DNA of 64,000 bases from Anaerolineales bacterium (GTDB taxonomy: Bacteria > Chloroflexota > Anaerolineae > Anaerolineales > E44-bin32): contig JAFGNH010000070.1 of the NCBI GenBank assembly GCA_016927115.1, positions 1 to 64,000 of the forward strand, read 5' to 3'. Each line of letters starts with the position of its first letter. Position 1 is the first letter of the stretch. The notes under the pieces were generated by a model. That model made no database searches. It saw nothing but the letters and a program-made list of their open reading frames with translations, and was not told the origin of the DNA. Shown piece after piece: positions 2,250 to 7,587 of the stretch. The translations under genes were made by a program, and so were the position numbers.

Positions 2250-2783
2250 CTACGCGCCTGGCCGTGTATGATCGGTCAGATCAGGGGTACGGCCTTCCAG
2301 CAGTTCCGCAATGGTGAAATAGATCGTATCGGCTGAGGGCGGACAGCCCTGGACAAAGACATCCACATCGACTACCTCGTGCAGAGGTACCGTCTTCGGA
2401 CGCAGCGCCGGTACTACCTCACTGGGATGCAGCGGGTTTTCGTCTGCTTTACGAATATAAGCATCATCCAGCAGCTCTTCCACCGGAATGGTATTGCGCA
2501 TGGCCGGAATGTTGCCGGCTGCTGCGCAATCTCCCAGCGCAACCAGTATGCGTGAGTGTTTGCGAATCTTCAGCAGTTTGTGATAATCCTCTTCACTGCT
2601 TACAGCACCCTCAACCAGGAACACGTCAATCTCATCCGGCATTTCTTTGTTGTCCACAAGTGGGCTGTATACCAGTTCAATCCTATCCGCCAGGTCTATC
2701 AGGCGTTCATCAATATCCAGCAGTGACATATGACACCCGGAGCAGCCATCCAACCAGGTTGTAGCAACAGTTATTTTGCTCAT
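2250..2783 (-). CDS. hoxY: NAD-linked [NiFe] hydrogenase small subunit HoxY
   Basis: 177 residues. This subunit holds the single proximal [4Fe-4S] cluster that passes electrons from HoxH to the diaphorase part. Four expected cysteines are visible: Cys14 and Cys17 in DGCSGCHMS, Cys86 in ALGDCA and Cys147 in VQGCPPSAD. The protein lacks a twin-arginine signal and the extra C-terminal cluster domain of membrane-bound hydrogenases, as expected for a soluble group 3 enzyme. Its ATG overlaps the hoxU stop by 4 nt (2780-2783). Confidence 0.94.
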
Positions 2784-3502
2784 GCCTGCACCTCTCTCAT
2801 TTTGGTCAGGTAGGGCAGGAATTCAGTGCGTTTGATCATTTCACCTGAAGCTTTCCCTTTTTCAACGATAGCACCGGTGGGGCAAACATTGACGCATTTC
2901 CCACAAGAGGAGCACGTTTTCGATTCTCCCCAGCTTGTGTCGAAATCACTGATAATCCTTGAATTGATCCCGCGTCCGAAGACATCCCAGGTGTTGGCGC
3001 CTTCAATTTCAGAGCACACACGCACACAGCGCGAACACAGAATGCAGCGGTTGGCATCGATGACAAAACGCTCGTGCGTCATGTCTACCTTCCGCACCGG
3101 ATCGAGATGCGGGTAACGCACATGATCCATACCAAGCCACTGAGCCAGGTCCTGGAGTTCGCAGTTGCCATTCGATACGCACACAGCACACACATGATTG
3201 CCCTCTGCAAAGAGCAGCTCGAGGATCATCCGGCGGTATTTACGAACCCGGTCGGAGTTCGTATTGACTACCATACCTTCTTCAACATATGTGGCGCAGG
3301 CTGGAAGCAGCTTGTCCCAGTTCTCCACCTCAACCAGACACAAGCGGCAGGAACCGACAAGTGAAAGGCCGTCAAGCTGGCAAAGCGAGGGAATGTATAT
3401 CCCGTTCTCCCTGGCTACCTCCAGGATAGTCTCATCTTCATGGGCGCCGATATCGCGCCCGTCAATTTTCAGAGTCTTGATTCGCGAGCGTTTTACTGTC
3501 AT
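2780..3502 (-). CDS. hoxU: Diaphorase iron-sulfur subunit HoxU (NuoG-like N-terminus)
   Basis: 240 residues, an electron wire between HoxF and HoxY. The order of cluster motifs is complete. A plant-type [2Fe-2S] uses Cys41, 52, 55 and 69. A His-Cys3 [4Fe-4S] uses His103, Cys105, 108 and 114. Two ferredoxin-type [4Fe-4S] clusters use Cys153/156/159/163 and Cys197/200/203/207. Length matches HoxU rather than full NuoG. It overlaps hoxF by 4 nt upstream and hoxY by 4 nt downstream. Confidence 0.94.
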
Positions 3503-5193
3503 GACAGCCTCCCTCCCTCAGCCTTCTTGCCCGAAACCACTTCCCCGGATACGGAAAGTGGGCCATCCATCACAATACATTCCTGATATTCCTTGTTGAA
3601 ATACCTCATCGTGCTGATCACCGGGTTGGGAGCCGCTTTTCCAAGCCCACACAAACTTGCGTTCTGGCACAGCTCACACAGGTCTACCAGCATGTCATAA
3701 TCGCGCTGTGTGGCTTTGTGCTTCACAAACCGATCCAGCAAATCATACATTTCACGGGTGCCAACCCGACAGGGGACACATTTGCCGCATGATTCAGACA
3801 TGCTGAATTCCATAAAATACCGGGCGACATTGACCATCGAGGATGAATCGTCCATGACAATCATTCCCCCTGACCCCATGATCGTGCCGACCTCTTTCAG
3901 GGATTCGTAGTCAACCGGCATATCCAGGAACTGCTCCGGCACACATCCGCCGGACGGGCCTCCGGTCTGCACGGCCTTGAAGGAACGCCCTTCCGGCAGC
4001 CCGCCGCCGATATCAAAGACGATCTCACGCAGCGTGATCCCCATCGGGACTTCGATCAGACCGGTGTTCCTGATCTGACCTGCAAGCGCAAATACTTTGG
4101 TGCCCTTGCTTTTCTCCGTCCCTACGGCGGCATACCACTCACCTCCGTTGCGCAGGATGGGCGCCAGGTTGGCAAATGTCTCCACATTGTTTATCAAGGT
4201 TGGCTGGCCCCAAAGGCCGTAATCCGCCGGATACGGAGGCCTGGGGCGCGGGATACCACGCCGTCCCTCAATCGAAGCAATCAGCGCTGTTTCCTCGCCG
4301 CACACAAATGCGCCTGCACCCAGCCGAACATCAATCGAGAAATCAAAGGTTGTACCAAAGATGTTGTTGCCCAGAAGGCCTGCCTGCCGCGCATGTCGTA
4401 TTGCCAGGTTCAGGCGTTCGACAGCCAGTGGATATTCAGCACGGATATATACATAACCCTTGTTGGCTCCTACGGCGTAACCGGCAATCACCATGCCCTC
4501 GATCACGCGGTGTGGGTCGCTTTCCAGTACGCTGCGATCCATGAACGCACCCGGGTCACCTTCATCAGCGTTGCAGATCACATATTTCTCATTGCTTTCA
4601 GCCTTGGCAACAGTGACCCATTTGAGGCCGGTTGGATAACCGCCGCCACCCCTGCCGCGCAGGCCGCTTCGTGTGACTTCCTCGATCACTTCATTTGGAC
4701 TGAGTTCTGTCAGAGCGCGAAACAAGCCCTGGTATCCGTCGGCAGCAATGTACTCCGGCAGCGATTCAGGATCAATGATGCCTGAGTTTTCGAGAACCAC
4801 TCTTTTCTGTCGCTCGAAAAACGGCACATTCTGCTCGAGCAGCAGTTCCTCATTGACACCCTTCTCAAACGTGTCGAGAATCGCAGGCACATCTTCAACG
4901 GTGACACCCTGGTACAAAATCCCTTCAGGATCAATCCGCAGGAGAGGGCCTTTAGCACATAAGCCCATACAACCTGCTCCTTTGATATCGACCTTATCCT
5001 GCAGGCCGCGTGCTTCCGTTTCAGCAATCAGCGCTTCGAGTACCCTGTCACTGTTCAATGAAATACATCCGGCAGCAACACAGATGGTGATACGGTGTTC
5101 ATACGCATCCAGCTGCTCACGGGTACTCTCCGCGACCTCGATCAGTTCATCATGAGTATGAATTGAAATACGTTGGTTATTCTGTCTCTTCAT
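3499..5193 (-). CDS. hoxF: Diaphorase NADH-binding flavoprotein HoxF
   Basis: 564 residues from the chosen start. The N-terminal thioredoxin-like [2Fe-2S] domain has Cys38/43/75/79 (CVAAGC and CMGLC). The NuoF-type core follows, with the glycine-rich FMN/NADH segment [13 protein letters not shown] and a C-terminal [4Fe-4S] site in [12 protein letters not shown] plus [10 protein letters not shown]. It exchanges electrons between NAD(H) and the HoxU clusters. An extra ferredoxin domain at the C-terminus, as in some HydB proteins, is absent. The frame is open to 5241, but tandem ATGs at 5191-5196 with AGAAGAAG just before them fit the family better and reduce overlap with hoxE to about 17 nt. 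Confidence 0.92.
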
Positions 5194-5695
5194 CATCTTC
5201 TTCTGCCATCCATTTGTCGAACTGCTCACGCACTTTTTCAACGCTCAGGTTGCCGACAACCTCGCCATCGAAAACTGCCGCCGGCGCCAATCCGCATGCC
5301 CCGATACAACGAACGGTTAGCAGCGAAACTTTGCCGTCCGGTGTTGTTTCGCCCGGGTGAAGATTGTAGCGTTCACAGATTTCCTCAAGGATTGCCTCGC
5401 CCCCTTTGATATGGCAGGCTGTTCCGGTGCACATGGAGATGGTATGCTTGCCCGCCGGTTTCATCTGGAAATAATGATAAAAAGTTACAACCCCCAACGC
5501 TTTGCTCGGTGATATGGGGAGTTTTGACGTGATAAAGCGCAGCGCATTCTCATCGATATACCCGAACAACTCCTGCACGGTGTGCAGTGTTTCGATGAGT
5601 GCATCCGGTTGATAGCCGTTCCTGCGCATGGTGGCTTCAACCTGTTTCCAGCGCATATCTGCAGCGTAATCGATTGTTGTAGCCGCTTCAAGCAT
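5177..5695 (-). CDS. hoxE: Diaphorase [2Fe-2S] subunit HoxE (NuoE-like)
   Basis: 172 residues, first gene of the hox operon. NuoE-like fold with one [2Fe-2S] cluster ligated by Cys89 and Cys94 (MCTGTACH) and Cys130 and Cys134 (RCIGACG). With HoxF and HoxU it forms the diaphorase module that links the hydrogenase to NAD(H). AGAGGAG six bases before the ATG supports the start. The leader is about 187 nt, counted from the predicted promoter and Rex site. Confidence 0.94.
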   Translation of the reverse strand: MLEAATTIDYAADMRWKQVEATMRRNGYQPDALIETLHTVQELFGYIDENALRFITSKLPISPSKALGVVTFYHYFQMKPAGKHTISMCTGTACHIKGGEAILEEICERYNLHPGETTPDGKVSLLTVRCIGACGLAPAAVFDGEVVGNLSVEKVREQFDKWMAEEDDEETE

Positions 5696-5803
5696 AATTC
5701 ACTCCTCTGATTCAAACTCAAATACTGGCTCAGAATTTCCTGTAAAAACCGTGCTATGTATCTACCACAGATTATTGCGGTATCGTTCTACAGCAGCATA
5801 CGG

Positions 5804-5824
5804 AAAAAATCGGCCGTACCGCCG
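5804..5824 (-). other. Possible weak attenuator in the hox leader
   Basis: In the minus-strand leader, a short CGGC/GCCG stem with loop GGTACG is followed by six T residues (5804-5809). The stem is only 4 bp, so termination here is doubtful. It is noted because it lies between the promoter and hoxE. Confidence 0.2.
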
Positions 5825-5865
5825 CGCCTCTCCATCATACAAGAAAAAGCAGCGCAATCCTCATA

Positions 5866-5883
5866 TTGTGAAATTTTACACAA
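5866..5883 (-). promoter_or_regulatory. Rex operator of the hox operon
   Basis: The 18-mer TTGTGTAAAATTTCACAA (minus strand) matches the Rex consensus TTGTGAA-N4-TTCACAA at 13 of 14 defined positions. It begins five bases after the -10 box and covers the predicted start site, an ideal repressor position. Rex leaves DNA when NADH/NAD+ is high, which would induce an NAD-linked hydrogenase able to dispose of electrons as H2. No rex gene is in the window. Confidence 0.75.
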
Positions 5884-5888
5884 ATCAT

Positions 5889-5917
5889 TTTATACACCCC
5901 CTGCAAATACGGGTCAA
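5889..5917 (-). promoter_or_regulatory. Sigma-70-type promoter of the hox operon
   Basis: On the minus strand TTGACC (5912-5917) is followed after exactly 17 bases by TATAAA (5889-5894). This is the best promoter match in the window. Transcription is expected to start near 5882, inside the Rex site. Confidence 0.75.
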
Positions 5918-6140: not shown

Positions 6141-6184
6141 AAAAAAACGGGAATGCCCAGGCGGGTCAGGCGGGCAGTTCCCGT
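6141..6184 (-). terminator. Rho-independent terminator of the DUF1295 gene
   Basis: The minus-strand transcript folds as ACGGGAA-c-TGCCC paired with GGGCA-TTCCCGT, with a 13-base loop, and is then followed by seven T residues (6141-6147). It lies 25 bases beyond the stop codon. Confidence 0.8.
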
Positions 6185-6208: not shown

Positions 6209-7084
6209 TTATCTCCGTGGCGGCTGCGGAATCAGCACCGAAGTGCGAGCTTTGTAAGCCTCATAGTCTTCCTGGCCACCCCACTTTTCATCTGCGCGCT
6301 GCTCAAGCAGCGGGACTCCGCTGATACGGGTAAGAAGAAGTGTGATAAAAACCGGTGAGATCATTGCCGTCCACTGCCATCCGCGGAGAACAGGAACTGC
6401 AGCAATCGCAACGCCAATCCATAATACAATTTCACCAAAATAATTCGGATGGCGGGACCAGGACCACAGGCCGGATTGGATAAATTTGCCCTTGTTCACT
6501 GGATCCGCACGGAATCTGCTTTTCTGAAAATCAGCAGCAGCCTCCATTCCAAACCCGAACAGCCACACTACCAGCCCGACAACGGCGAAGGGCCCGAATG
6601 GCACACGCAATGTTGATGTAATCGCAGCCAATGCTGCTGCCAGCGAAAAAGAAACCCACAATCCCTGCAGCGTCCAGGCCATGAGGAAGCGAGGAAAGGA
6701 AACCTTGATAGCATCAAATCGCTCATCGGCTCCTGCTTTTCGCACTCGCCGGAAAAGAAATGTTCCCAACCGTACAGCCCAGATAATCACCATAATTCCC
6801 ATCATCCAAACCCGCGCATCAAGCTCCGGACTCAGAAGAAGGGCTGCTGTAATAACAGATATGTACGTGATGCTGCCAGTCAGATCATAATAATGCTCGG
6901 TACCTTTTAAATAGGATGGGATAAAAACCAGCCACTGAAACACGAACGCCATCAAGATGCCCAGCGCATACAGCGGGAACCCACCTGCCTTCGCGCTTCC
7001 CTGACTACCGGACAGTGCCAGGCCGGTACCAATAAGAACTATAACCGGAAGTGCAATCCATGCTCGTTTCGTTTCCTGATCCAT
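6209..7084 (-). CDS. DUF1295 family membrane protein (steroid 5-alpha-reductase-like)
   Basis: 291 residues with about seven hydrophobic segments. The C-terminal signature SGLWSWSRHPNYFGEI, followed by a second basic/acidic segment near the end, is typical of the DUF1295/ICMT-like fold shared by steroid 5-alpha-reductases and isoprenylcysteine methyltransferases. These are NAD(P)H- or SAM-dependent integral membrane enzymes; the substrate here is unknown. The start is ATG at 7082-7084, preceded by GGAGAAGG. An upstream TTG at 7096 overlaps that ribosome site and is less likely. It is a single-gene unit. Confidence 0.85.
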   Translation of the reverse strand: MDQETKRAWIALPVIVLIGTGLALSGSQGSAKAGGFPLYALGILMAFVFQWLVFIPSYLKGTEHYYDLTGSITYISVITAALLLSPELDARVWMMGIMVIIWAVRLGTFLFRRVRKAGADERFDAIKVSFPRFLMAWTLQGLWVSFSLAAALAAITSTLRVPFGPFAVVGLVVWLFGFGMEAAADFQKSRFRADPVNKGKFIQSGLWSWSRHPNYFGEIVLWIGVAIAAVPVLRGWQWTAMISPVFITLLLTRISGVPLLEQRADEKWGGQEDYEAYKARTSVLIPQPPRR

Positions 7085-7587
7085 TGCCTTCTCCAATCTT
7101 TTTACTGGGTATGTTTCCGCCTTCTACCTGGTTTTCCAGCTTACAATTTCCATGAAGAGCCCCATGAGGGTGTTTCACAGGTATCCAAAGTTTACAAGAC
7201 CCAATAAACGTTAAGACTTTCCATCTTTTTAGATGCGGCCTTCTCTATCATGTTACATCATAGTTCTAATAATGGCCCACTATGATCCTTGCTGAGTCAT
7301 GGTCTCACATCTCAACAGCCGACCACAGTACATTCACATTTTCGTAGCAATATGGAGAGGGCTTCCTCGTCCTTTGTCCTATTCTGTATGATCCCTTTGG
7401 AAGTGAGGGCGTTTCCGCAATGTCAGGAGCAGGGCAGTGTTACACCGCTTGAATAAGATACAGATCGCAGCTCGAAGGAACAGGCAGCACTTCCGATAGT
7501 ACTGGATATACACTCACACAAGGCAACCCGCTGCAAGTACAATAGTTAAACAGAAATAAAAATACTGCAGCCCCGAGGAATATGATC
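7085..7587. other. Divergent intergenic region
   Basis: About 500 bases between two divergent genes. No convincing gene: short open frames here have no ribosome site and atypical composition. The right end holds a TACAAT box at 7538-7543, a likely -10 element for the esterase gene, and a GAGG ribosome site at 7575-7578. Confidence 0.5.

Follow-up and report, generated by a model that had tools for sequence, protein, structure and literature searches.

The hoxEFUYHW hydrogenase operon of this genome is very probably controlled by the repressor Rex, through an 18-bp dyad that lies on the predicted transcription start site. The dyad occupies positions 5866–5883 of the window, the 64,000-nucleotide stretch of DNA analyzed here, and its minus-strand reading, TTGTGTAAAATTTCACAA, matches the consensus TTGTGAA-N4-TTCACAA at 13 of 14 positions, with T for A at position 6 as the sole mismatch; dyad, coordinates and score agree with the initial annotation. 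Rex is a common repressor that releases DNA as NADH builds up. At a low NADH/NAD+ ratio, NAD+-bound Rex would occupy approximately +1 to +17 and keep RNA polymerase from initiating, and a rise in NADH would cause the NADH-bound protein to leave the DNA, allowing the hydrogenase to be expressed. The enzyme, an NAD(H)-linked [NiFe] hydrogenase of group 3d type, would then shed electrons as H2 and restore NAD+; the cell would probably make it when electrons are in surplus. Computed support for this switch comes from the dyad and its promoter match, from the operon and a canonical rex gene in the genome, and from enrichment of the motif, its recurrence before hoxE in relatives and a Rex-type regulon in the order; the binding, the response to NADH, the start site and the direction of the enzyme are predicted from sequence.

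Profile models and translations bear out the gene order hoxEFUYHW proposed initially. On the minus strand, hoxE (5177–5695, ATG at 5695) scores 219 bits with the NCBIfam HoxE model, just below its cut-off of 224, hoxF (3499–5196), a NuoF-like NADH/FMN subunit, scores 489 bits in the TIGR01959 family, below the equivalog cut-off, and hoxU (2780–3502) reaches 381 bits with the NCBIfam HoxU model, above its cut-off of 333. The remaining genes, also on the minus strand, are hoxY (2250–2783), the small [NiFe] subunit, matched by group-3 small-subunit models; hoxH (823–2238), the large [NiFe] subunit, matched by large-subunit models and carrying the motifs RICGICTISH and DPCLSCSTH in its translation; and hoxW (341–826), a maturation protease above the TIGR00072 cut-off. 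With E-F-U-Y-H subunits and both Ni-binding motifs of HoxH, the operon has the composition of a Group 3d (Hox) NAD-linked [NiFe] hydrogenase. Two more HoxE/NuoE-like genes occur in the same genome (G000:C148:366-806 and G000:C161:23386-23691; 41% and 34% identity to HoxE, respectively), with no listed Rex site for either.

The dyad lies 170 bp upstream of hoxE and, as had been claimed, directly follows a TTGACC-N17-TATAAA promoter on the minus strand, at a gap of 5 nt. The −35 hexamer (TTGACC, 5912–5917) agrees with TTGACA at five of six positions and the −10 hexamer (TATAAA, 5889–5894) agrees equally well with TATAAT, giving an overall match of 10/12. Transcription would start at 5881–5883 (minus strand), ∼7 nt downstream of the −10 hexamer, and the predicted start near 5882 falls on the dyad's first bases. 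The predicted leader of ∼187 nt (window positions 5693–5882, minus strand) contains the Shine-Dalgarno sequence AGAGGAG of hoxE (5702–5708, minus strand); its fold is unremarkable (z −1.7), and an Rfam search of it returned no match above threshold. The upstream gene on the same strand (6209–7096) is followed by a clear intrinsic terminator at 6184–6141 (minus strand; hairpin then U7, −20.4 kcal/mol, z −2.7), and hox is therefore a separate transcription unit.

A standard promoter scan did not list the hox promoter, because its −10 hexamer ends in A. This omission and the incomplete promoter match would suit an alternative in which the palindrome arose by accident and some other promoter or regulator drives hox, as would the bare half-site pattern, which 64 kb of sequence should contain by chance (with one mismatch it is common in shuffles of the window, mean 2.5). 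However, the full score of 13/14 is unique in the window, where all other positions reach at most 11/14, the dyad recurs before hoxE in relatives, and its geometry is common to hox and other Rex-type promoters. Because the full score coincides with promoter placement and recurrence in relatives, we consider the dyad to exceed chance, and an accidental palindrome is highly unlikely.

Recurrence was assessed at 80 named HoxE loci, where sites of at least 12/14 numbered 4 in the 39.9 kb of hoxE upstream stretches compared to 3 in 546 kb elsewhere. The sites cluster in Chloroflexota, in which 8 of ∼21 hoxE loci have one of at least 11/14 within 600 bp (∼0.4 expected). A hoxE upstream site is also present in G035 and G060, although rex was not found in the G035 assembly, and in G030 a site stands before hypA-hypB-hoxE. 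The spacing from dyad to hoxE is similar in relatives, mostly 84–263 nt. Within the 80 named loci, no such site precedes hoxE in Cyanobacteria, Chromatiales, or Acidobacteria, and it is missing in most other phyla. The sigma-70 promoter at the site in the window is better than that at any named Chloroflexota hox locus.

The arrangement of a promoter followed by a dyad on the start site recurs in Rex-type promoters. Among 32 sites chosen because they stand in front of genes, a promoter of at least 9/12 ended 0–14 nt before the dyad in 9, compared to 0–4 in every other offset window, with the 15-nt window adopted after a fixed-offset version of the test had failed first; at a promoter threshold of 8/12, the counts were 14 of 32 versus 1–7. 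The fixed-offset promoter average over the 32 sites showed no signal because the gap varies. The layout is clearest at ndh of G134, where the dyad begins 2 nt after TTGACA-N17-TATAAT.

The regulator that this reading calls for is encoded in the genome, which contains a single full-length rex gene (L001:1486-2106; PF06971, 1.7e-18; 262 bits with the NCBIfam Rex model, cut-off 126). Its product combines the winged-helix N domain and Rossmann NAD(H) domain of a Rex repressor, aligns over its full length to solved Rex structures (2vt2, 3ikv, and 5zz5), and retains the conserved IRKDLS-FG helix and GVGDLG motif. The gene shares 60–67% identity with rex genes of its family, indicating the same lineage, and one gene of the window is 59% identical to its counterpart in a congener; the rex and hox contigs therefore fit the same lineage. 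Judged by the named relatives of HoxE, the genome belongs with Anaerolineae-type Chloroflexota. In this assembly (4.81 Mb in 204 contigs, 92% complete, 6.75% estimated contamination), binning error was considered and ruled out, as both contigs carry family-typical genes and are similar in composition. No site of at least 11/14 indicative of autoregulation was found at the genome's own rex.

A search allowing two mismatches gives 27 motif sites in this genome, versus 4 for a reversed control pattern. Only about four 13/14 sites are well placed, and the well-placed sites precede hox, focA, a GNAT-family gene, and, at a distance of 18 bp from the start codon side, an FAD oxidoreductase gene; the remaining one-mismatch sites fall within ORFs or lack a clear target. 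An HdrC-like gene has a 12/14 site 188 bp upstream. At G000:C55:7612-7629 (L142), a 13/14 Rex-like site is located 18 bp before an FAD-dependent amine-oxidase-family gene and downstream of a LuxR-type regulator gene.

We extended the survey to 201 genomes of the order, 177 of which have rex. Motif counts against the control were 237 versus 66 in the rex-bearing genomes and 24 versus 12 in the rex-less ones, so that count gives no clean separation between the two groups; the excess in rex-less genomes is possibly due to several incomplete assemblies. The motif lies upstream of NDH-2-like genes in four genomes and of focA in three, including this one, and also precedes GAPDH, nuoA, PEPCK, and AOR; in G112 it is found 122 bp upstream of rex itself. 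It also stands before hydrogenase operons that are HoxE/NuoE-headed or related, in G116, G134, G051, G075, and G044. Many other copies are within ORFs or before genes without an obvious redox role. The initial expectation of motif copies before other redox genes thus holds both here (focA) and across the order (NDH-2, GAPDH, nuoA, rex, and hydrogenases), and the targets resemble a typical Rex regulon.

The dyad could also be the operator of a CRP/FNR-family regulator, in which case cAMP, O2, or some other signal would govern hox. The consensus TGTGA-N6-TCACA of this family overlaps that of Rex, several sister sites consist of it, and one of these, in G133, adjoins a CRP-family gene. This genome also encodes a CRP-like protein (L130) with the recognition helix TTREQACR, which fits the R-E-x-x-x-R pattern of E. 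coli CRP. However, the hox dyad does not carry TGTGA-N6-TCACA in both halves, one CRP half-site being broken to TGTGT. Of eight such cores in the genome, only three are intergenic, precisely those that also carry the Rex motif's outer T...A, whereas the other five lie inside ORFs, and a Rex-like regulon that includes rex also speaks against CRP. A CRP-like regulator is the less likely binder of the dyad, and we consider control of hox by such a protein unlikely. A second CRP-like regulator (L131, G000:C27:216432-216641) is fused to an apparent B12-binding domain.

With its consensus match, a rex gene in the genome, placement at a redox-gene promoter, and conservation in relatives, the hox dyad has the attributes of a predicted Rex operator. 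A broader reading, for which the case is evenly poised, is that NAD-linked [NiFe] hydrogenases may be under Rex control throughout the Anaerolineae lineage, Hox as well as a distinct HoxYH-type operon in which NuoE/F-like genes are doubled, through a common layout of −10 followed by a dyad on the start. Operons at L187 (G051:C4:136500-147500) and L189 (G075) combine doubled NuoE/F-like genes with HoxY/H-like genes and encode a NuoG-like subunit that carries a molybdopterin-oxidoreductase domain. A Rex-type promoter heads both. In the G051 operon, the HoxY- and HoxH-like genes come after the doubled NuoE/F-like genes, and the dyad scores 12/14.

Our literature search found no paper tying Rex to a hoxEFUYH (group 3d) operon and no Rex regulon in Chloroflexi, the main Rex survey, Ravcheev et al. 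2012, which may describe hox, being outside its scope. That Rex controls hydrogenases is well established in general. We regard the hox switch as a soundly predicted case of a common type of switch, on a new target. It would provide a testable rule for the timing of H2 production via NADH-linked hydrogenase in fermentative Anaerolineae.

The closest experimental parallel is Caldicellulosiruptor bescii, in which EMSA showed Rex to bind in front of both [NiFe] and [FeFe] hydrogenase genes, the NADH specificity of binding was tested, and the consensus, TTGTGAAN4TTCACAA, is the same as that matched by the hox dyad (PMC6391272). The enzymes of that Gram-positive thermophile are a membrane-bound ferredoxin-dependent [NiFe] hydrogenase and [FeFe] hydrogenases (PMC6391272), whereas the Hox operon considered here belongs to an Anaerolineae-type genome. 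Rex sites have also been predicted in Caldithrix abyssi, where one precedes the rex-hydABC operon (PMC5317091), in Calderihabitans maritimus before hyd-3b and cooS-ech (PMC7306483), and in Parageobacillus before Ni-CODH/ECH. The C. abyssi and C. maritimus cases resemble ours in that Rex is predicted to control hydrogenases that are NAD(P)-linked or energy-conserving, with induction at high NADH, but they involve an [FeFe] trimer and group 3b plus Ech enzymes, respectively, in contrast to a group 3d-type Hox with an unlinked rex (PMC5317091, PMC7306483). Cyanobacterial hox operons encode the same enzyme type under redox-linked control, but their regulators are others, with hoxEFUYH under cyAbrB proteins and hoxUYHW under RpaA, and cyanobacterial RexT, an ArsR protein, has no relation to Rex (PMC13421787). 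The present case extends predicted Rex control to a Hox operon, a type of operon whose known regulators differ elsewhere.
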